From assembly GCA_013152295.1 (NCBI GenBank), contig JAADGQ010000154.1, positions 1 to 38,833 of the forward strand: a stretch of DNA of 38,833 nucleotides, in the 5' to 3' direction. The translations under genes and the position numbers were made by a program. This DNA comes from Gammaproteobacteria bacterium (lineage in GTDB: Bacteria; Pseudomonadota; Gammaproteobacteria; JAADGQ01). Below, in pieces: positions 10,070 through 36,702 of this stretch. The notes under the pieces are model-generated. The model searched no databases. It was given only the letters and a program-made list of their open reading frames with translations, and was not told where the DNA came from. Every line of letters begins with the position of its first letter. The stretch's first letter is position 1.

Positions 10070-11713
10070 ATGCATATTGTCATTCCTATGTCTGGAATTG
10101 GTAAAAGATTTATTGATGGTGGCTACGATGTTCCGAAACCACTCATTGAAATTGATGGGAAGCCAATTATTCAATATGTCGTTGAGCTGTTTCCAGGGGA
10201 GACGAAATTTACTTTTATTTGCAATCATATTCATCTTGAAACAACGCAGATGAGAGAGACGTTGATGGCGATTGCGCCTCATGGCGAAATTGTAGCGATT
10301 GACACTCACGTATTAGGCCCTGTTTATACCGTGGCGCAGGTGATGGATCGTATTGACGATGATGAAGAGGTGATCGTTAATTATTGTGATTTTGGCACCT
10401 ATTGGGACTACGATGATTTTTTATCACACACGCGTAATCGAGATGCTGATGGCGCCATTGTTTCATACAAAGGTTTTCACCCCCACATGCTGGGTGCGAC
10501 AAAGTACGCGACGATACGTGAGACTGAGCAATGGATGCTGGAAATCAGAGAGAAAGGGTCATTTACGAATGACAGAATGAGTGAGTTTGTCTCTAATGGA
10601 ACGTATTATTTTAAAAAAGGGAGCTACGTTAAAAAATATTTCAGTGCGCTGATGGATCGGGATATCAGCCTCAACGGTGAGTTTTATGTGAGCCTGATCT
10701 ATAACTTGTTAATCGATGATGGGCTCAAGGTATCAGTGTATGACATTCAGCATATGCTGCAGTGGGGAGAGCCCTTTGATTTTGGATCATACCGTAACTT
10801 TAGCAACTATTTTAAGCGCACTGTTCATGATGTTCCGGGCTGGAAGCCTCAAGTCAAATCAGTAACATTAATTTCACTGCTAGATCGTGATCGCCTCTTC
10901 GAGGCTGAGGGGTATGACCTGCCAAAGCCCTTGTTGCCCGTCAGCGGTATGCCAATGACTGTGTTGGCAAACAGGCAGTTACCAAGTAGTGAAAAAAATG
11001 TATACATCTGTTCAACAGATGATTGTGAGAAATATGGGCTTGATCAGTCGATAAGAGACCAAAACCCTGAAGCTATTGTCGAGATGGTCGATAACGCTGC
11101 TGGTGGATCTGTCATGAGTTATCGTTCAGGGCTAAAGCATGTCGATGGCGCGTCTCCACTGTTAATTGGCTCATGTGACAGCAGTGTGCTGTGGGATCAT
11201 GATAAGTACCAGTCTCTGCTCGATGATCAATCTATAGATGCCATTGTCTGGACCTTTAAAGGGTACCCTCCTGCGATTGTCAGGCCTGCTGGGTATGGGT
11301 GGGTTGTTGCAGATAGTGGGATTGCAACGAGCATCAGCGTTAATGCGCCGCTTTCAGATAATCCAGAAGCTGATTACGCGAGTATCGGTGTTTACTATTT
11401 TAGATCGGCTTCCATGGTGAAATTGGTTCTCGATGGACTGGATAAAGGTGATGCGTGCATCGATGACGCATATGATTTAAACAGCTTGATGAATGCATTG
11501 ATCAAGCAGGGCAAAAAAGTTGCTATTTTTGAAGTTGACTCTTATATCTCCTGGGGTACGCCTGGTGAATATGAGACGTTTAATTACTGGCAAAGTTTTT
11601 TCCATAAAAATAGAGATCACATTTATGATCTTGGAAATGACCCATTTGTAGATAAAAAATCGTTGCAGAGTCTCGTCGACAAGTTTACTGATTTTAAGCA
11701 AAATTTTATTTAA
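10070..11713 (+). CDS. Tandem (duplicated) sugar nucleotidyltransferase
   Basis: A 547-residue protein made of two nucleotidyltransferase (Rossmann, PF00483-like) domains. Domain 1 (about 1-260) begins IPMSGIGKRFIDGGYDVPKP, the classic NTP-binding signature with the catalytic Arg and the PKP lysine, and has a candidate metal aspartate in NYCDF. Domain 2 (about 270-540) keeps the spacing and a similar GYDLPKPLLPVSGMP, but its glycine-rich loop is replaced by LISLLDRDRLFEAE, and its aspartate sits in GSCDSS. Domain 1 is therefore probably catalytic and domain 2 possibly regulatory or altered in specificity. Both halves share the WGxPxxxxxYxxF end pattern (WGEPFDFGSYRNF, WGTPGEYETFNYW). The substrate is unknown; a role in activating a sugar or small alcohol phosphate for an envelope glycan is inferred. 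Codon and base use are AT-rich, suggesting transfer. Confidence 0.8.
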   Translation: MHIVIPMSGIGKRFIDGGYDVPKPLIEIDGKPIIQYVVELFPGETKFTFICNHIHLETTQMRETLMAIAPHGEIVAIDTHVLGPVYTVAQVMDRIDDDEEVIVNYCDFGTYWDYDDFLSHTRNRDADGAIVSYKGFHPHMLGATKYATIRETEQWMLEIREKGSFTNDRMSEFVSNGTYYFKKGSYVKKYFSALMDRDISLNGEFYVSLIYNLLIDDGLKVSVYDIQHMLQWGEPFDFGSYRNFSNYFKRTVHDVPGWKPQVKSVTLISLLDRDRLFEAEGYDLPKPLLPVSGMPMTVLANRQLPSSEKNVYICSTDDCEKYGLDQSIRDQNPEAIVEMVDNAAGGSVMSYRSGLKHVDGASPLLIGSCDSSVLWDHDKYQSLLDDQSIDAIVWTFKGYPPAIVRPAGYGWVVADSGIATSISVNAPLSDNPEADYASIGVYYFRSASMVKLVLDGLDKGDACIDDAYDLNSLMNALIKQGKKVAIFEVDSYISWGTPGEYETFNYWQSFFHKNRDHIYDLGNDPFVDKKSLQSLVDKFTDFKQNFI

Positions 11714-11770
11714 TGGGTTTTTATTATTTAGCTATTTTTTAGCTACTGTTGAGTGTATTGGTGTTTGACT

Positions 11771-12397
11771 ATGACTAAGATTAAAGCAGTAATATTCGAT
11801 ATGGATGGCGTACTCATCGAAGAGAAGGGTTGGCACTATGATTCTCTCAATATGGCTCTTAAGTTGTTTGGCCATGAGATCAGCCATCACGACCATCTTG
11901 TTACTTATGATGGTCTGCCGACAATGAAAAAGTTGGAGATGCTAAGTATTGAGCGAGGTTTGCCTAATGCGCTGCATAAGTTCATTAATGAGATTAAGCA
12001 GCAGTACACGCTTGATATGATCTTCACTCGTTGCAAGCCGACTTTTAACCACCAATTTGCGCTATCTCGGTTGAAGAGTGATGGTTATCGATTGGGCGTT
12101 GCATCGAATTCAGCCAAGCTGACGGTAGATACCATGATGCATAAATCAACATTGGTCGACTATCTTGATTTCATGTTCTCATATCAAGATGTGAAGGAGC
12201 CAAAGCCCAATCCAGAGATCTACAAGAAGGCTATAAATTTTTGGGGTTTTTTGCCTGAAGAGTGTGTGATAGTTGAGGATAATGAAAACGGCATCAAAGC
12301 GGCGAAAGCTTCAGGCGCCCACGTGTTAGAAGTGCTCGGTGTGGACGATGTCACGTACAAAAATATTATCGAAAAAATTCAGCAGGTAGAGGCGTAA
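11771..12397 (+). CDS. HAD-superfamily phosphatase/phosphoglucomutase-like hydrolase
   Basis: A protein of about 208 aa of the HAD superfamily, beta-phosphoglucomutase-like subgroup. Motif I is IFDMDGVL (nucleophile Asp plus acid/base Asp), motif II is VASNSA, the motif III lysine lies in KEPKPNPEIY, and motif IV is VIVEDNENGI. An alpha-helical cap is present (about 20-85). It probably hydrolyses or isomerises a phosphorylated sugar. The ATG at 11771 is chosen because it sits directly before the conserved TKIKAVIFD. It lies between two nucleotidyltransferases, 4 bases before the next start, so it likely makes or cleans up the phosphate substrate that those enzymes activate. The exact substrate cannot be read from the sequence. 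Confidence 0.85.
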   Translation: MTKIKAVIFDMDGVLIEEKGWHYDSLNMALKLFGHEISHHDHLVTYDGLPTMKKLEMLSIERGLPNALHKFINEIKQQYTLDMIFTRCKPTFNHQFALSRLKSDGYRLGVASNSAKLTVDTMMHKSTLVDYLDFMFSYQDVKEPKPNPEIYKKAINFWGFLPEECVIVEDNENGIKAAKASGAHVLEVLGVDDVTYKNIIEKIQQVEA

Positions 12398-12401
12398 ACT
12401 G

Positions 12402-13139
12402 ATGCTAAATATACTCATCCCGATGGCCGGAAAGTCTGTTTTTTTCGAACACAGTAATTATATGTTTCCAAAATCGCTGTCTGAAGTGAGAGGGCAGCCG
12501 ATGATTCAATGTGTAATTGAAGATTTAAATACTATCGATGAGGATATCAATTATATATTTGCGATAAATAAAGAGGACTGCAAAAAATTTCATCTTGATA
12601 ATGTATTGAAACTGTTGACGGATGACAAAGCGGAAATTATTCGTGTTGATGGCGAAACGTCTGGCGCTGCATGTACCGCGCTGCTGGCGATTGAATCGAT
12701 CAATAATGATGATCCATTAATCATCTCAAATTCGGATCAGAAATTTGATTGCAGGCTGGATAGTTTTATTAAAGATTTTGTTCAGCGTGATTTAGACGCC
12801 GGCGTCATCTGCTTCAACTCAGTTCATCCCCGTTGGTCTTATGCACTTACCGATGAGAGTGGACGCGTCGTTGAGGCATCCGAAAAAAGACCCATTAGCA
12901 AGCAAGCGATCGCTGGTTTTTTCTATTTTAAACACGGAAAAGATTTTGTTCGTGCGGCCATGGAGTCCATTGTTAAAGATGCCAGCATCGGTGGTAATTA
13001 CTATATCGCACCTGTTTTAAATGAGATGATATTGAGTAATAAAAATATTGGGATCGGTAGTGTTGAGAATAAAAATTATCACACTTTCTATTCGCCACAG
13101 CTCCTTGAAGAGTATAACCGTGGACAACATTGTGATTGA
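12402..13139 (+). CDS. Nucleotidyltransferase-like protein with altered NTP loop
   Basis: A 245-residue single-domain nucleotidyltransferase-like protein. The N-terminus IPMAGKSVFFEHSNYMFPKS aligns with the family signature, but the GxGxR loop is AGKSVFF and the usual PKP is PKS. The metal-site region ISNSDQKFD is well kept, as is the ETSGAACTALLAIESI segment, which matches the base-recognition GTA/GAA region. It is related in sequence to both halves of the product of 10070-11713. It probably transfers a nucleotide to a sugar or polyol phosphate, or has become a partner subunit. It is the last gene of the AT-rich cassette. No glycosyltransferase, export or polymerase genes accompany the three. 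Confidence 0.75.
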   Translation: MLNILIPMAGKSVFFEHSNYMFPKSLSEVRGQPMIQCVIEDLNTIDEDINYIFAINKEDCKKFHLDNVLKLLTDDKAEIIRVDGETSGAACTALLAIESINNDDPLIISNSDQKFDCRLDSFIKDFVQRDLDAGVICFNSVHPRWSYALTDESGRVVEASEKRPISKQAIAGFFYFKHGKDFVRAAMESIVKDASIGGNYYIAPVLNEMILSNKNIGIGSVENKNYHTFYSPQLLEEYNRGQHCD

Positions 13140-29316: not shown

Positions 29317-29985
29317 TTAATAGCGGTGTGGTAGCGGTTTGTGAATGGTGATGTGCTTTTTGTTGACACTAATGTAGCCACCCACCGTCAGATCTTTCAT
29401 GATACGCGACACCATTTCACGCGAGGCACCCACGCGGCTGGCGATATCCTGTTGTGTCAACCTGAGTTCAATTACCGCAACATCGTTATGCTGCACGGCT
29501 AGATCCGTGAGCATTTTGGCAACGCGTCCGTAGACATCCATCAGTGCCAGGGCTTTAACCTGGTCTGTTAATCCATAGACGCGATGCACAAGATTCTTGA
29601 TCAGAGTGATGGCGATGTTGGGGTGTCTGGCCATCATGGCCAGAAATGCGCTCTTTTCGATGATTGAAAAAATCGAGTCTTCCACGGTCATTACCGACGC
29701 GGAGCGGTCTGTTTCACCGAGCAGAGCAAGCTCACCAAAATATTCGCCGATGCCCTGATAGTTAATGATCACCTCTTTGCCCTCTTCGTCATTCAGGTAG
29801 ATCTTTACCTTGCCTTGCAAAATCACGAAGAGGGAGTCGGAGCGCTCGCCATCGTGGATGACAACGTTGTTTTTGCGCACTTTGCGCGGTAGTGCACACT
29901 GTTCAAGCGCTCTTTTTTCGTCATCGCCCAAACCATTAAACAGCGCGACGCTGGTTAGCGAAACAACAGGTTTTGGATCTGGCAT
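29317..29985 (-). CDS. Crp/Fnr-family transcription regulator
   Basis: A protein of about 222 aa. The cyclic-nucleotide-binding domain (about 15-130) contains the phosphate-binding cassette FGELALLGETDRSASV, with the Glu and Arg-Ser that contact cAMP in CRP. The winged-helix domain has LTQQDIASRVGASREMVSRI; the recognition helix SREMVSR has the same R-E...R pattern as CRP (SRETVGR), predicting TGTGA-type half-sites. No Fnr-type cysteines are seen. The start is taken at the ATG giving MPDPKPVV; an ATG 29 codons earlier would add a low-complexity tail. It is divergent from the class III cyclase gene, which suggests that the cyclase makes its ligand (inference). Confidence 0.88.
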   Translation of the reverse strand: MPDPKPVVSLTSVALFNGLGDDEKRALEQCALPRKVRKNNVVIHDGERSDSLFVILQGKVKIYLNDEEGKEVIINYQGIGEYFGELALLGETDRSASVMTVEDSIFSIIEKSAFLAMMARHPNIAITLIKNLVHRVYGLTDQVKALALMDVYGRVAKMLTDLAVQHNDVAVIELRLTQQDIASRVGASREMVSRIMKDLTVGGYISVNKKHITIHKPLPHRY

Positions 29986-30137
29986 CGTTTTGCTACTGCT
30001 ATTTATAAAGGGGCGGCTTTGCGCCGCGTATTTGGTCGGAGTGTTTTTGACGGCATCGGGGGGGCACTGCATACTATGGACATGTGCGCTTTCCTATCAT
30101 GCCGACGATCTCTTTTAACCTCTGTTACCTCAGGGTA

Positions 30138-32414
30138 ATGCAAAAACTTGCAATGGGCAAACAGGGAATGACCGCCGTTTTGGCGGTGACTGTCATCTTG
30201 ATTGGTATCATTTTTAACCAGTTGCCCATTCAGCTCGTGTCGGAGAGAAGCCTTGGTTTGTCGCTTCTTTTCAAGTTGAGAGGTCCGCTTCCGGCACCGA
30301 CCGATGTGGTATTGGTCAGCATCGATAAAAGCACTGCCGATGCGCTTGACCTCAGCATTGAATTAAAAACCTGGCCGCGCCGGTTACACGCAAAACTGAT
30401 TGATAACCTTGCACGCGCCGGTGTCGCAGTCACGGTTTTTGACATCTATTTTAAAGGTGCAACGCGCACCGAAGATGACCAAGCCTTGGCGACAAGCATC
30501 GGCAATGCCGGTAATGTCGTGCTGTTTTCCCAGTTGCAGCGTGAGGTGACACCGCTGTTATCCTCGTCTGACACCGCAGTAACGACAATAGAGATCAATC
30601 GTGATCGCATGGTGGCGCCCTTTGAGCCCATCGCTGCCGAAGCCGCAGCCTTGGCGCTGTTTCCGCTGCCCAAAGTTTCGCTCAGCGTCAGCCAGTTTTG
30701 GGCTTTTTACGCGATGGATGCGCTGCCGACGTTGCCTGCTGCTGCGCTGGAGCTGTTCGTGCTATCTGACCCTGGCGCGCTGTTTACAGTGCTTGATAGC
30801 CTTCGCCCGCAGCAGAGCGGTGATATTCAGCAGCGCTTCGCCGCAACAAAAAGCAGCTCGGCGCTGGCGCTCAGTCTGCGTTCGCTATTCAGGAATGATC
30901 CCTCTTTAATCCATGCTGTACTGGCACAGTTCGACAAAAACGCAAAAAAAAGTCATCGCTTAGAAGCGCTGCTCAACATGTATCTCGCTGATAGTCGCCT
31001 CGATCTGAACTTCTATGGCCCGCCCCACACCATTACCCGTGTCCCCTACCTTGATGTGTTAAACGGCACTGAGGAGGCGTTGACTAAGGTTCGTAATAAA
31101 GTCGTCTTTGTCGGCTATTCGGGGCGTTTTTTGCCGGAGCAGCAAGATAGCTTTTACACAGTATTTTCCCAAAACAACGGATTGGATATCAGCGGGGTAG
31201 AGATTGCAGCGATGGCGTTCTCTAATCTTCTTCATCAACAAACTTTACACCCGGCACCTCCGGTTTTGTTTGCTATTGTTTACGGTCTGTTTATCACGCT
31301 GGTCGGTTATGCTTTGGCGCAACGCGCATCGGCGGGTGTGGCGATTGCTTGTATGTTGTTGCTCAGTGCTGCCTATTTTACGGTCAGCTATTTGCTGTTT
31401 GCACGTTATCAGCTATGGCTGCCGTGGGTTGTGCCACTGCTGGTTCAGACACCATTGGTGCTAATTTTTACACTGCTATGGCAGCATAAGCGCGTGCAGG
31501 CACGGCATGACAAGATACACCATGCTTTTGCGCGCTTTATTCCCGGTACTGCTGTTGAGCAGTTGGGTGAACATGGTGCGCAGTTGTTGTCGCGTGCTGC
31601 GTGTGCGGAAGCCGTCTTCGGTGTCTGCATGGCCACCGATGCCAGACAGTACACTCGGCTGGCGGAAAGCATGGATGCGCAGCGATTGCACGTGTTTATG
31701 AAGCGCTATTATGAAGGGCTGTTTGCGCCGGTCAGCAGGCATGGTGGATATGTCTCTGACATTGTCGGTGACGCAATGATGGCGATATGGCACGCACCAG
31801 AAACAGAGTGGGAATCACCTCAGTTGCGCGAGGCGGCCTGTCAAGCGGCGCTGGATATCGTTGCGCAGGAGCATAGACGCCTCTCTCAAGGTGGTGTTGT
31901 GTCGCTTAAAACACGCATCGGCATTCATTGCGGCGAGGTTTCAATCGGCCACATTGGTGCCGGTGATCACTATGAATATCGCGCGGTTGGCGATACGGTG
32001 AACACTGCGTCACGTATTGAGAACCTCAATAAACGGCTCGGTACCTCTATTTTGGTCTCGAGTGAGACGATTGAAAATCTGTCAATGCTACTTTCAACAC
32101 GATTGAGTTGCAGTCGAGAGTTGGGTGATTTTCAGTTTGTTGGCAAGAGCACGTCGATCAATATTCATGAACTGCTCAGCACTCAAGGCCATTGTAATGA
32201 CAGCATTGAGGCTATGACGGAGCTTTTTGCCAAGGGGCTGTGCGCATACCGTCAACAGTCGTGGTCTGTTGCCATCAGTAAATTCAGCGAGCTGTTACGC
32301 ATCGTCCCCGATGATGGCCCGGCACGCTACTATCTGCAACGCTGCCAGGACCTCACAACCTGCCACCCCTTAAGCGGATGGAGCGGGGTTATTGTGTTGA
32401 ATGAGAAGGATTAA
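30138..32414 (+). CDS. CHASE2-domain class III adenylate/guanylate cyclase
   Basis: A protein of about 758 aa. N-terminal membrane segment (about 10-30), large periplasmic CHASE2 sensor domain (about 35-370, with VLVSIDKSTADAL and VGYSGRFLPEQQDSFYTVF), three membrane helices (about 385-460) and a cytoplasmic cyclase domain (about 500-660). Both metal aspartates are kept (ATDARQYT and VGDAMMAIW), as are the Asn and Arg in AVGDTVNTASRIE. The purine-selecting lysine before the second motif is Asp (SDIVGD), so substrate and activity need testing. A TPR-like segment (AYRQQSWSVAISKFSELLRI) is near the end. The start is uncertain: ATGs occur at 30084, 30138, 30153 and 30168. It lies upstream of the FecR-TPR-barrel gene in the same direction. 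Confidence 0.88.
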   Translation: MQKLAMGKQGMTAVLAVTVILIGIIFNQLPIQLVSERSLGLSLLFKLRGPLPAPTDVVLVSIDKSTADALDLSIELKTWPRRLHAKLIDNLARAGVAVTVFDIYFKGATRTEDDQALATSIGNAGNVVLFSQLQREVTPLLSSSDTAVTTIEINRDRMVAPFEPIAAEAAALALFPLPKVSLSVSQFWAFYAMDALPTLPAAALELFVLSDPGALFTVLDSLRPQQSGDIQQRFAATKSSSALALSLRSLFRNDPSLIHAVLAQFDKNAKKSHRLEALLNMYLADSRLDLNFYGPPHTITRVPYLDVLNGTEEALTKVRNKVVFVGYSGRFLPEQQDSFYTVFSQNNGLDISGVEIAAMAFSNLLHQQTLHPAPPVLFAIVYGLFITLVGYALAQRASAGVAIACMLLLSAAYFTVSYLLFARYQLWLPWVVPLLVQTPLVLIFTLLWQHKRVQARHDKIHHAFARFIPGTAVEQLGEHGAQLLSRAACAEAVFGVCMATDARQYTRLAESMDAQRLHVFMKRYYEGLFAPVSRHGGYVSDIVGDAMMAIWHAPETEWESPQLREAACQAALDIVAQEHRRLSQGGVVSLKTRIGIHCGEVSIGHIGAGDHYEYRAVGDTVNTASRIENLNKRLGTSILVSSETIENLSMLLSTRLSCSRELGDFQFVGKSTSINIHELLSTQGHCNDSIEAMTELFAKGLCAYRQQSWSVAISKFSELLRIVPDDGPARYYLQRCQDLTTCHPLSGWSGVIVLNEKD

Positions 32415-32501
32415 GGGGCACTTTTATATGGCACTGCTTTAATAGGCTTGAGCTATAGCGCAGGAAAAATACTACAAAAACAGCTATTCAAGAGAATTTT
32501 C

Positions 32502-32529
32502 TGGACACCTTGGTGAATTTTTGTACAAT
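32502..32529 (+). promoter_or_regulatory. Probable promoter of the FecR-TPR-barrel gene
   Basis: TGGACA (32502-32507) and TACAAT (32524-32529) are 16 bases apart in the 316-base gap after the cyclase gene. It would give a leader of nearly 200 bases before the ATG at 32731, holding the tandem repeat. No terminator for the cyclase gene is visible, so read-through is also possible. Confidence 0.45.
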
Positions 32530-32694
32530 GGTTGCCACTGACTGGTTGACTCATCGACTCTCTTTCCCCCTTCAAATGACCAATATTGAATGCGTATCGT
32601 CCCTATTTTGACACTACAGAGCAGCGGCATTCGACGCACTTGTCGCGCTTTTTCTTCTGTATGTTCAGCTATTTTTGAAAAAAATCGATGCAAG

Positions 32695-32736
32695 AGGTCG
32701 TTGTGCCGAGGTCGCTATGCCGAAGTCGCTATGCCA
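32695..32736 (+). repeat. Three tandem 14-bp repeats over the translation start
   Basis: The units are AGGTCGTTGTGCCG (32695), AGGTCGCTATGCCG (32709) and AAGTCGCTATGCCA (32723). Each holds a GAGG or GAAG ribosome-site-like stretch 5 bases before a GTG or ATG (32703, 32717, 32731). Because 14 is not a multiple of 3, the three start codons are in different frames. Only the last opens the full-length gene; the first ends within 15 codons and the second at 32953. Confidence 0.8.
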
Positions 32737-35700
32737 GAGTTGCGTAGCAGGGAACTTGCTTGTAGCCCGTTATGGTTGCTGCTGCTGTGTGGTCTGTTTC
32801 CCACCGAAACGCTGGCTAGTAGCTGTGAAGTGTGGTCTGCCCGCGCCGAATCCATCGAGGGTTCAGTTGAGGTTCGCACTTTCGGCTTCAAACCTTGGGT
32901 TGCTGTCAGTTCAGGTGACAACTTTTGTCTTGGCGATACAGTTCGCGTGCTGAAAAACAGCCGTGCAGCTCTCTATCTCAATAATGGCACGCTATTGCGG
33001 CTAGATGAGCAGAGCGTTGTTACGTTCACGGGTGAGCAGGACGAAAAATCGTTCTGGCTTAAACTGGTTAAAGGTGTCGGACACTTTATCAGTCGCATCA
33101 AACACTCTTTTACAGTCGTGACCCCCTTTGTTAATGCAGCCGTTGAGGGGACTGAGTTTGTCGTGCAGACGACAGACGGCGGGAGCCGTGTCACCGTTTT
33201 CGAGGGCCAGGTTGCGGCGCATAATGAACTCGGTCGAATCACCCTGCGCAGTGGTCAATCGGCTACCGCGAGCGGACGCCATGCGCCGATGCTAATATCA
33301 GTTATGCAGCCTCGGGATGCTGTGCAGTGGGCGCTCTACTATCCACCACTGTTGCCTTTTGATGAGATGGCGTTGAGTCCGGCAGAAGGCAAGCTCGCGG
33401 CGTGGCAAGAGAAAACAGCGCAGTCGGTCGCACGCTATCAAACGGGTGATATCAGAGGCGCCCTTGAGAGCATTAGCGCCATCGGCGCAGAACCCAAAGA
33501 GACGCGCTTTTATCTCTATCGAGCGGCACTGAGTCTATCCGTGGGGCGTGTCGAGGTTGCCCGTCAGGCAATTCAGCAGGCTCTTCGGTTGCAGCAAAAT
33601 AATGCTTCGGCACTTGCTCTGCAAGCGATTATTGCTCTGGTTAATAATGATAAAGAGCGCGCGTTACAGCGTGCTAAGCAAGCAGTTGTCAGCGATGCCA
33701 GTGCCGTTAGCGCACAACTGGCGCTCTCTTACGCGCAGCAGGCCTATTTCGATTTAAAACAGGCGCGAATCACCATCGAGCACGCTGTAACGATACATGA
33801 ACATGATGCGCTGTTATGGGCTCGTTTAGCCGAGTTACACCTTATGTTTGGTGAACCGGAGGCTGCACAGGCAGCGGCGCAAAAAGCGATGGAACTTGCG
33901 CCCGGACTGGCGCATACGCACACAGTGCTCGGTTTCAGTGCACTGACCCACGGCGATTTAAGTGCGGCACAACAAGCGTTCACAACTGCTATCGAGTTGG
34001 AGCAGGGTGCTCCCCTGCCGCGTTTGGGGTTAGGTCTGCTGACGATTAACAGAGGGAAGCTTGAGCAGGGCCGTCATTACATTGAGGTTAGCGCAAGCCT
34101 TGACCCCAATAATGCATTAATCCGCAGCTATCTGGGTAAAGCCTATTTTGAAGAACGGCGTGACAATCTCGCGACAGACCAGTACTTGATGGCTGAACAG
34201 CTCTCGCCGCTGGACCCAACGCCGTGGTTTTACCAGGCAATTTTGGAGCAGACACTCAATCGTCCAGTGGTCGCTCTCAGTGCTTTGAATCGCTCGATCG
34301 AACTTAATGACAACCGCGCTATTTATCGTTCGCGCCTGCTGCTTGATGAAGACCGGGCTGCGCGAACCACTAGCCTGGCACGTATCTATCGCGACCTTGG
34401 CTTTAAACAGCAGGCTTTTCTGGAGAGTCAGAAGTCACTCAGCAGAGACCCGACCAATTACTCCGCACACCGTTTTTTGGCAGATACTTACGCGGGCGAG
34501 TCACGCCATGAAATTGCCCGAGTTAGTGAGCTACTACAGGCGCAACTGTTGCAGCCGCTGAGTTTGGGCCCGATTCAACCCCAATTGGCGGAGAGCAACC
34601 TGGCTCTATTTAATGAGGGTGGATCTGCGCGTCTGTCATTTAATGAATTTAACCGTCTTTTTGTGCGGAATGGCACCAGGCTACACAGTAATCTGCTTGT
34701 TGGCAGCAATAACACCTGGGCAGATGACTTTGTTGTCTCCGGCTTGAACGAGCGTTTTTCGTACAGCGTCGGACAGTTTCACTATGAGACAGATGGCTTC
34801 AGAGAGAACAATGATCTAACTCACGACATCTACAATGCGTTTGGCCAGATGCGTGTTACTCCCCGTCTAAGTCTGCAAGCCGAACTGCGCAGAAAAAAGA
34901 CGGCGCAGGGTGATCTTGTGCTTAACTTTGATCCGGCGGATTTCTCAACGGTTAACCGTCGCCGAGTGACACAAGATACCGCAAGAGTGGGTGGCCGTTA
35001 TCAATTAAGTGCGCAATCGAACACTATTTTTTCATATATTCACAGCAAGCGGGAGGGGAGGCAGCAATTATTGTCCCAGGCCCCTTCTGTGGTAGAGGCG
35101 GATGATAATAGAAGCGATCAAATAGAAGCCCAGTACCTTTTTCAGCACGAAAAATTTAATTTAACCACGGGCATCAGTGCCTACGACGTTAAGCAAAAGT
35201 TTGACAGTGCTTTTGATTGGAGTGCTATATTCGGCTCGAACTGCCCGCCGTTTCCGCCTGTGCCTTGCGGTGAAGTGGGCGAAAATCCAAGAAAAGCGCG
35301 CAGCGCTTATCTCTATAGTAATATTTTCACGACTTCAAAAATATGGAATATTGGCTTCAGTTATGATTCTGTTGAAAAGGGAGCGCTCGACTTGAATGAG
35401 GTGAGCCCGAAAATCGGTTTGCAATGGAGTCTTTCAGAGCAAACTACACTAAGAGCCGCCTATTTTGAAACCATTAAAAAAACATTAACGGTACAGCAGA
35501 CCATCGAGCCTACGCAGGTTGCAGGTTTTAATCAGCTATTTGATGATCACAACGGGACGCAATCTGCATTCACAGGGCTTGGTGTTGACTCTAAAATTAA
35601 CGCATCCCTTTTTGGTAGCGTTGAATTTTATCTTCGCGACCTTGATGTTCCCGTTTTCAGCGACACAAAAGTTACACAGTTTAACCGGAAAGAGGCGTTT

Positions 35701-36123
35701 TATCGTATTCAGATGGACTGGGCTGCGTACGCTCGTTGGGCAGCGTCAGTAAGATATCAACAAGAGAGAGTCAGCAATAAGGCGCCTGGCCCCGAACGCG
35801 TGGAGACGGCTCAAGTGCCTGTCAAAATTAGCTACTTTCATCCGAATAATGCTTTCGGAAAGCTCACTGCAACGCACGTTCGCCAGCATGTAACGCTGGA
35901 TTCCGGCACGTCATTTTCTTCTCGTACTGAGGCATTCTTCGTTGTCGATCTGGCTATTGGCTATCGCCTGCCCAATCGATGGGGGTCGATCACTCTAGAG
36001 GCTCGCAACCTGTTTGATAAAACGTTTATTTTTCAGGATCAGAACTTCATGCGTTCAGAGCCGGTTAGTTATGAGTTCATTCCAGAACGCACGATCATGA
36101 CTCAGCTTTCACTTAATATCTGA
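32731..36123 (+). CDS. FecR domain-TPR-outer-membrane barrel fusion protein
   Basis: A protein of about 1130 aa. Signal peptide (LWLLLLCGLFPTETLA, cleavage near residue 30), then a FecR-type domain (about 35-190) with LGDTVRVLKNSRAALYLNNG, VKGVGHFISRI and TPFVNAAVEGTEFVV. Next come many TPR helices (about 220-620, for example AQQAFTTAIELEQG and YLGKAYFEERRDNLAT). The C-terminal part (about 630-1130) is strand-rich and ends like a TonB-dependent-receptor barrel (GSITLEARNLFDKTFIFQDQ). No plug or TonB box is seen. The frame is open upstream to 32590, but the signal peptide fixes the start at 32731. Such a protein would sit in the outer membrane with its FecR and TPR parts in the periplasm. Function unknown; an envelope sensor, secretion or assembly role is inferred. 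Confidence 0.85.
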   Translation: MPELRSRELACSPLWLLLLCGLFPTETLASSCEVWSARAESIEGSVEVRTFGFKPWVAVSSGDNFCLGDTVRVLKNSRAALYLNNGTLLRLDEQSVVTFTGEQDEKSFWLKLVKGVGHFISRIKHSFTVVTPFVNAAVEGTEFVVQTTDGGSRVTVFEGQVAAHNELGRITLRSGQSATASGRHAPMLISVMQPRDAVQWALYYPPLLPFDEMALSPAEGKLAAWQEKTAQSVARYQTGDIRGALESISAIGAEPKETRFYLYRAALSLSVGRVEVARQAIQQALRLQQNNASALALQAIIALVNNDKERALQRAKQAVVSDASAVSAQLALSYAQQAYFDLKQARITIEHAVTIHEHDALLWARLAELHLMFGEPEAAQAAAQKAMELAPGLAHTHTVLGFSALTHGDLSAAQQAFTTAIELEQGAPLPRLGLGLLTINRGKLEQGRHYIEVSASLDPNNALIRSYLGKAYFEERRDNLATDQYLMAEQLSPLDPTPWFYQAILEQTLNRPVVALSALNRSIELNDNRAIYRSRLLLDEDRAARTTSLARIYRDLGFKQQAFLESQKSLSRDPTNYSAHRFLADTYAGESRHEIARVSELLQAQLLQPLSLGPIQPQLAESNLALFNEGGSARLSFNEFNRLFVRNGTRLHSNLLVGSNNTWADDFVVSGLNERFSYSVGQFHYETDGFRENNDLTHDIYNAFGQMRVTPRLSLQAELRRKKTAQGDLVLNFDPADFSTVNRRRVTQDTARVGGRYQLSAQSNTIFSYIHSKREGRQQLLSQAPSVVEADDNRSDQIEAQYLFQHEKFNLTTGISAYDVKQKFDSAFDWSAIFGSNCPPFPPVPCGEVGENPRKARSAYLYSNIFTTSKIWNIGFSYDSVEKGALDLNEVSPKIGLQWSLSEQTTLRAAYFETIKKTLTVQQTIEPTQVAGFNQLFDDHNGTQSAFTGLGVDSKINASLFGSVEFYLRDLDVPVFSDTKVTQFNRKEAFYRIQMDWAAYARWAASVRYQQERVSNKAPGPERVETAQVPVKISYFHPNNAFGKLTATHVRQHVTLDSGTSFSSRTEAFFVVDLAIGYRLPNRWGSITLEARNLFDKTFIFQDQNFMRSEPVSYEFIPERTIMTQLSLNI

Positions 36124-36200
36124 TTTTGGCATGTTGATTATTGACATATAAGGAGCTACACAAACGGTGGCATAACATGGAAAACTAAAGGAGAAGTATC

Positions 36201-36629
36201 ATGTCAACAAAATCATTATTAATCATTGGCACTATGGATAAAAAAGAGCCTGGCCGGGCAGGTCAGCGAAGCCGTTTTTTATTAAAATCGCAACTATTTC
36301 TATATTTGATCCTTGGTGGATGCCTGTTGCTTGGGTTTTCATCAGTAGCCGTGAGCGCACCGCCGCTGCAGGCGACAAAAGTGCTCAGCGACAAAATGGA
36401 TAGCGACCTTAAATTTAGCCAGAGTCGCGTTGCTTTGGTTTTGGTTGTTGATGAAAATGGTGCGATTCAGGCGCATCGTGGTGCAAAGACAAAAGCGCCG
36501 GTTCTTTCGAAGTTCCCCCTGCATGCTGCAGATATCACCAATATGACCGGTATTACTGTGTTTGCTACGAGTAATCCAAAAACGTGCTGGACAACCACCA
36601 GTGGTGACCTGTACTGCGTCGAGTGGTAG
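36201..36629 (+). CDS. Small exported or membrane-anchored protein, unknown function
   Basis: 142 aa with a strong ribosome site (AAAGGAGA, 36187-36194) before the ATG. A basic N-terminus is followed by one hydrophobic segment (about 33-53, LFLYLILGGCLLLGFSS) and a possible cleavage after AVSA. The remaining 90 residues are hydrophilic. The C-terminus holds a cysteine pair (PKTCWTTTSGDLYCVEW) that could form a disulfide in the periplasm. I recognise no family. It lies 77 bases after the barrel gene on the same strand and ends before a terminator, so it is probably the last member of that unit. The long N-region before the hydrophobic segment is unusual for a plain signal peptide. Confidence 0.75.
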   Translation: MSTKSLLIIGTMDKKEPGRAGQRSRFLLKSQLFLYLILGGCLLLGFSSVAVSAPPLQATKVLSDKMDSDLKFSQSRVALVLVVDENGAIQAHRGAKTKAPVLSKFPLHAADITNMTGITVFATSNPKTCWTTTSGDLYCVEW

Positions 36630-36672
36630 CAGGTCTGTCTTGAATTACGTTGTTTGATATTACATTGACAGA

Positions 36673-36702
36673 TGGTCGGCCTCTATGGGTCGGCCATTTT
36701 TT
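36673..36702 (+). terminator. Intrinsic terminator after the small exported protein gene
   Basis: TGGTCGGCC (36673-36681) pairs with GGTCGGCCA (36688-36696) as RNA, with two G-U pairs. The loop has six bases and six T residues follow (36697-36702). It would end the cyclase/barrel/small protein transcript. Confidence 0.75.

Follow-up and report, generated by a model that had tools for sequence, protein, structure and literature searches.

A candidate envelope-spanning cyclic-nucleotide signaling module combining a CHASE2 cyclase and a FecR-TPR-barrel protein in a gammaproteobacterium

The window analyzed here, a 38,833-nucleotide stretch of a gammaproteobacterial genome (assembly GCA_013152295.1, contig JAADGQ010000154.1), contains a Crp-like regulator gene that is divergent from genes for a CHASE2 class III nucleotidyl cyclase, an outer membrane FecR-TPR-barrel protein and a small exported protein, in that order, followed by a terminator. 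We suggest, with a probability of roughly 0.55, that the four genes form a signaling module that spans the envelope and uses a cyclic nucleotide. The barrel protein would sense or transport something at the cell surface. Its FecR domain and its TPR solenoid would both lie in the periplasm, the small Cys-tailed protein would be its partner or cargo, and the FecR domain would report across the periplasm to the CHASE2 domain of the inner membrane cyclase. The cyclase would then make a 3',5'-cyclic nucleotide, with cyclic GMP (cGMP) as the first candidate in the gammaproteobacterial clade, and a main receptor in Gammaproteobacteria, the product of the divergent Crp-like gene, would convert the signal into transcription. 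The features of the locus are as follows.

29317..29985, minus strand: Crp-like regulator, 222 amino acids (aa) from the homology-supported start; the open reading frame (ORF) reaches 30072 (Pfam, ortholog alignment)
29986..30137, unstranded: divergent regulator/cyclase intergenic region, in which no CRP-consensus or other conserved palindrome was detected (operator scans)
30138..32414, plus strand: CHASE2-class III nucleotidyl cyclase, 758 aa; ORF from GTG at 30084 (Pfam, ortholog alignment)
~30201-31310, plus strand: periplasmic CHASE2 domain of the cyclase
~31635-32102, plus strand: cyclase domain of the same protein
31758..31760, plus strand: Asp codon, first purine-specifying position (alignment)
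31980..31982, plus strand: Arg codon, second purine-specifying position (alignment)
32731..36123, plus strand: FecR-TPR-barrel outer membrane protein, 1130 aa, with signal peptide; ORF from 32590 (Pfam, alignment, model)
32839..33297, plus strand: FecR domain, model residues 37-189 (Pfam, model)
33310..34551, plus strand: TPR solenoid, model residues 194-607 (Pfam, alignment, model)
34672..36117, plus strand: 22-strand beta-barrel, TonB-dependent-receptor-like and plugless, model residues 648-1129 (Pfam, model, Foldseek)
36201..36629, plus strand: small exported protein, 142 aa, with a signal/lipobox-like segment and a C-terminal two-Cys signature, ...NPKTCWTTTSGDLYCVEW (comparison of small genes)
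~36670-36702, plus strand: strong intrinsic terminator, -20.8 kcal/mol, z -4.0 (terminator prediction)

Gene organization and conservation

The ORF check of the window placed all four genes where the first-pass annotation had them, and the Pfam domains agree with that arrangement: cNMP_binding and HTH_Crp_2 in the regulator, CHASE2 and Guanylate_cyc in the cyclase, and FecR, TPRs and TonB_dep_Rec_b-barrel in the barrel protein. What changed were the starts. In ortholog alignments, homology begins inside the regulator, cyclase and barrel ORFs, and the true starts are probably the internal ATG codons at 29985 (minus strand), 30138 and 32731. With these corrections the spacing between the regulator and cyclase genes grows from 11 bp to about 150 bp, and about 316 bp separate the cyclase and barrel genes.

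Full-length orthologs of the cyclase, with 33-45% identity, were present in about 38 of 369 sampled genomes of the class. Reading their neighborhoods, we found the barrel gene adjoining the cyclase gene in 27 of 33 testable gammaproteobacterial orthologs and a Crp-like gene beside 22 of 35 (divergent in 20), with all three genes together at 17 of 32 loci. Searching GTDB species genomes with a barrel-protein profile yielded 450 relatives. The best 79 loci include members of the Gamma- and Betaproteobacteria (among them Chromatiaceae, Thiodiazotropha, Nitrosomonas, Nitrosospira and Nitrosovibrio) and of Nitrospirota, Desulfobacterota, Brocadia and Methylomirabilota. At 63 of the 72 testable loci across phyla the cyclase and barrel genes are neighbors, with the cyclase gene immediately upstream on the same strand at 62 of them, and the pairwise distances of the two proteins correlate strongly (Mantel r 0.72 against a null maximum of 0.14). 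The grouping of cyclase and barrel genes is thus far above chance, and cultured hosts, including Nitrosomonas europaea, possess the pair. The barrel protein is missing from G001 and G002, the two immediate sister genomes, as might be expected if the genes were chance neighbors with no shared function, but the adjacency counts and the Mantel correlation already refute that explanation for the cyclase-barrel pair, and we regard it as barely credible. Some genomes have two FecR-TPR-barrel genes (L140, L146, L158 and L185, all Nitrosomonas, and L062).

The genes do co-occur widely elsewhere, as the first-pass proposal requires; the regulator gene, for its part, is a lineage-specific partner. Outside the Gammaproteobacteria a divergent Crp-like gene is rare, being found at two Nitrospirota loci (L137 and L139), and a Crp/Fnr gene of another kind lies downstream in some Nitrosomonadales. 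Given the wide adjacency of cyclase and barrel genes and the patchy occurrence of the Crp-like gene, the cyclase and the barrel protein together make up the core unit, to which the regulator adds a lineage-specific output.

The AlphaFold2 model of the barrel protein, made with 68 sequences, has a pLDDT of 85.5 and a pTM of 0.82 and consists, over the residue ranges listed above, of a FecR beta domain, TPR helices and 22 strands, as counted from the secondary structure of the model. The best Foldseek matches in the PDB are the TonB-dependent receptors FhuE, FpvA, FptA and FecA. Their 22-strand barrel is predicted here, whereas their N-terminal plug is not: neither Pfam nor the model gave a plug domain. 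A PDB sequence search with the barrel region yielded chance matches only, and we found no description of a plugless TonB-receptor barrel preceded by FecR-TPR in the literature searched; a literature search combining Nitrosomonas europaea, adenylate cyclase and FecR returned nothing. The C-terminal TPRs, the most conserved stretch of the family, and a segment after strand 13 (NQTxEPTQVAGFNQFFDD) show almost no variation. By this predicted architecture the FecR and TPR parts are periplasmic and, together with the CHASE2 domain and three transmembrane segments of the cyclase, the model fits the earlier proposal that FecR and CHASE2 both face the periplasm.

The small protein has no BLAST relatives and no Pfam family, its Pfam matches being at chance level. 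A small gene lies 3' of the barrel gene in 84 of 116 cases, and the C-terminal pattern C-x(4-16)-C-x(0-4) occurs in 42 of 81 distinct small proteins versus 33 of 1103 control ORFs from the same loci (Fisher p 3e-34, a descriptive value since the pattern was picked after inspecting the sequences). Lipobox-like starts are enriched among these proteins, whose common layout is a variable N terminus (lipoprotein signal, anchor or none), the motif hhVhhDxxGxh and a C-terminal stretch, which in the window is NPKTCWTTTSGDLYCVEW. The recurrent position and the Cys signature therefore indicate that the fourth gene is a real, fast-evolving component. Several Nitrosomonas small proteins resemble two tandem copies of the small domain.

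Nucleotide specificity of the cyclase and the regulator

The cyclase scores above the Pfam cut-offs for both CHASE2 (102.4 bits) and the class III catalytic domain (55.1 bits). Its catalytic residues are all present, namely, the metal-binding Asp residues D519 and D563 and the transition-state residues N640 and R644 (ORF numbering). Among 63 cyclases from barrel-gene loci, both metal Asp residues and the transition-state Arg occur in all 63 and the Asn in 60. From these residues the enzyme looks catalytically intact, and the first-pass concern that it might be inactive finds no support.

The residues that specify the purine are different. At the first of these positions adenylyl cyclases have Lys and guanylyl cyclases Glu, and at the second adenylyl cyclases have Asp or Thr. 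The window cyclase and 35 of 38 gammaproteobacterial proteins of the family have the pair Asp/Arg. Among the other CHASE2 cyclases of the class, Lys/Thr is found in 17 of 19. The adenine-specifying Lys is absent from all 63 barrel-locus cyclases across phyla, and 39 of them combine the exact Asp/Arg pair with otherwise intact catalytic residues. The solved structure nearest in sequence is 2w01, labeled adenylate cyclase in the PDB, which we take to be Synechocystis Cya2. Cya2 itself has the specificity pair Glu-Gly and is described as a guanylyl cyclase (PMC4215837). In published enzymes, use of ATP goes with Lys and Asp/Thr, and use of GTP with an acidic residue at the first position (PMC4215837, PMC7384201). 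With Asp/Arg in place of the canonical Lys and Asp/Thr, the family therefore falls outside the sequence definition of adenylyl cyclases, and its product in the clade of the window is probably not the ordinary adenylyl cyclase product. Compared with the guanylyl pair (Glu with Cys, Ser, Thr, Gly or His), the first residue is acidic but Asp, and the second-position Arg is no described guanylyl marker; cGMP is a reasonable first candidate.

The regulator belongs to the Crp-Fnr superfamily and has a cyclic nucleotide monophosphate (cNMP)-binding domain with an intact phosphate cassette (GE...RS) and a Crp-type HTH; the equivalents of E72, R82 and S83 of CRP are invariant in its close orthologs. 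Its recognition helix is SREMVSR as in CRP, and the DNA-recognition residues match those of CRP in nearly all close orthologs. The phosphate-binding part of the cNMP pocket and the CRP-like recognition helix noted in the first pass are thus borne out as far as residues can tell. The C-helix purine contact is altered: Thr127-Ser128 of E. coli CRP is replaced by Leu-Thr, here and in all but one close gammaproteobacterial ortholog. At the two Nitrospirota loci (L137 and L139), the divergent Crp-like gene (36-37% identity) has Ala-Thr in the C-helix and the cyclase pair is Asn/Arg; enzyme and receptor there depart together from the gammaproteobacterial version.

The host assembly (2.46 Mb, 181 contigs, 91.7% complete) encodes one CHASE2 protein, one class III cyclase and 14 cNMP-binding domains. 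It also encodes the class I adenylate cyclase CyaA and, beside trpC, a canonical Vfr/CRP-like protein distinct from the window regulator, which scores 131.4 bits against the NCBIfam CRP equivalog cut-off of 266. Since a separate CyaA and Vfr/CRP are present and the window regulator scores below the CRP cut-off, the window circuit is additional to the ordinary cyclic AMP (cAMP) system. The altered residues of both enzyme and regulator suggest a signal separate from ordinary cAMP, and the locus looks like a second cyclic-nucleotide circuit, perhaps one not using cAMP.

Related systems and alternative explanations

The locus was initially taken for a possible new system, which holds only in part: a Campylobacterota cluster of CHASE2 adenylate cyclase, FecR outer membrane protein, TPR protein and cAMP phosphodiesterase was proposed in 2022 to form one, horizontally transferred pathway (PMC9239204). 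The general idea of a CHASE2 class III cyclase working with a FecR outer membrane protein and TPRs is already stated there. FecR and TPR are described there as separate proteins, whereas the window has one protein, and the phosphodiesterase has no counterpart in the window, where MCP and DUF4442 genes are the neighbors instead. The text consulted mentions neither a Crp partner nor a shift in nucleotide specificity, a barrel fold or a small Cys-tailed protein. New here are the single FecR-TPR-22-strand fusion, its multi-phylum spread, the Asp/Arg pair, the altered receptor pocket, the divergent gammaproteobacterial Crp-like gene and the small Cys-tailed partner.

Other systems share parts of the design. 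In the Burkholderia BiofilmReg operon, a periplasmic FecR-domain protein is likewise encoded with a CHASE2 inner membrane sensor, but the output is a histidine kinase/response regulator and FecR is fused to LysM, not to TPRs and a barrel (PMC5192318). In Sinorhizobium meliloti, the CHASE2 cyclases CyaD1, CyaD2 and CyaK also act through a Crp-family regulator, Clr, whose targets include FecR- and TPR-domain envelope proteins (PMC5498481, PMC10127613). The loci there are separate, however, Clr has a TT motif where the window regulator has Leu-Thr, and a FecR-TPR-barrel fusion is not described. We know of no CHASE2, FecR or outer membrane barrel component in the CgrA circuit of Rhodospirillum centenum or the XC_0250/XC_0249 circuit of Xanthomonas. 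Both are cGMP circuits with a cNMP-binding receptor (PMC4681086, PMC3770947). In FecA-FecR-FecI, as proposed for the window, signaling from the outer membrane involves a barrel of the TonB-receptor type together with a FecR domain; unlike there, FecR in the window is on the outer membrane protein itself, the plug is missing, and the inner membrane partner is a cyclase. Pfam gave no sigma factor among the window neighbors, and the FecIRA combination of an inner membrane FecR anti-sigma factor with an extracytoplasmic function (ECF) sigma factor was not found. On Rhizobium sp. BG4 plasmid pRPC2 (L191, 5253-11534), a gene for the Pycsar effector PycTM diverges from a gene pair encoding a FecR-TPR protein and a CHASE2 cyclase whose site is Lys/Ser. 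This arrangement suggests that FecR/CHASE2 modules can also have cNMP-binding membrane effectors as outputs. The FecR-CHASE2 pairing thus recurs independently, with Burkholderia kinases (PMC5192318), with Campylobacterota cyclases (PMC9239204) and in this Rhizobium locus. This recurrence with other outputs is the best evidence that FecR may contact CHASE2.

Several alternative explanations were weighed against the proposed module. It seems rather unlikely that the enzyme is an ordinary adenylyl cyclase despite Asp/Arg, its surface-derived cAMP joining a common pool that acts via Vfr/CRP and other cNMP proteins, with the Crp-like protein as another cAMP receptor. Possible receivers exist in the 14 cNMP-binding domains, S. 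meliloti CHASE2 adenylyl cyclases supply Clr with cAMP (PMC5498481), and the more distant Rhizobium pair has an adenylyl-type site. However, loss of the Lys in every one of 63 relatives across phyla is hard to square with selection for ATP, CyaA is already in the genome, and the adenine contact of the receptor is altered. The plugless TPR-plus-barrel architecture, the small exported gene 3' of the barrel gene in most loci and its Cys pattern could instead be accommodated by an export pore for the small protein or a polymer, with a PgaA/BcsC-like TPR scaffold and barrel, the cyclase as regulator or checkpoint, and an incidental Crp-like gene. We consider this improbable: PgaA and BcsC barrels are of the 16-strand type, unlike the predicted 22-strand TonB-receptor type, polysaccharide genes do not adjoin, and the divergent position of the Crp-like gene recurs in 20 of 35 testable gammaproteobacterial orthologs. 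A pyrimidine cyclic nucleotide product in a Pycsar-like defense or stress circuit is very unlikely. The Rhizobium pair has its divergent PycTM gene and the window cyclase matches the PADLOC PycC profile (E 3.5e-22), but PycC profiles match class III cyclases generally, the partner in the window is a transcription factor, and CHASE2 with an outer membrane partner is ill suited to an intracellular phage sensor. Pycsar membership was rejected, no PycTM/PycTIR effector having been found near the window.

The envelope-spanning module has points against it as well. A departure from the canonical specificity residues is not in itself proof of a different product, and Clr of S. meliloti, with its TT motif, binds both cAMP and cGMP (PMC10127613). 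Thirteen of 35 gammaproteobacterial orthologs have no adjacent Crp-like gene, most other phyla lack it too, and relatives of it (43-48% identity) occur in module-less genomes, including sister genomes without the cyclase. The structure model of the small protein is poor (pLDDT 62). Across 25 divergent Crp/cyclase intergenic regions, the CRP-type operator TGTGA-N6-TCACA was not enriched, and an unbiased palindrome scan with spacers of 0-11 found nothing clearly above shuffled sequences; feedback of the regulator on the operon thus gained no support, and the direction of regulation in our scheme, from cyclase to regulator, should be read as a proposal. More tentatively, the signaling module could take a stronger form in which a barrel receptor or pore with built-in FecR directly controls a non-cAMP CHASE2 cyclase (making cGMP or something less usual), its dedicated Crp-family receptor has a matching pocket and is insulated from CyaA/Vfr, the fast-evolving small Cys-tailed protein is ligand or cargo, and the system is common to ammonia oxidizers, Nitrospirota, sulfate reducers and gammaproteobacteria.

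Implications and other features of the window

If the proposed signaling module is real, it would represent a further route from the outer membrane into the cell beside FecIRA-type surface signaling, one that ends in a cyclic nucleotide. The signals of CHASE2 sensor domains are unknown (PMC5192318), and CHASE2 would gain a concrete periplasmic partner. Further, cyclase and regulator would make up a naturally occurring enzyme/receptor pair whose purine recognition is altered and which is conserved across phyla, a help in reading nucleotide specificity from sequence.

In the Pfam search, the genes flanking the four-gene cluster encode an MCP and a DUF4442 protein. Elsewhere in the window, GC-rich genes at the contig start (388-4144) resemble the membrane and large subunits of the hydrogenase-4/complex I-like group. 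Positions 10070-13139, with sugar-nucleotidyltransferase and HAD-type genes, have a GC content of ~0.42-0.47 compared with 0.53-0.68 around them and are possibly an acquired surface-sugar cassette.

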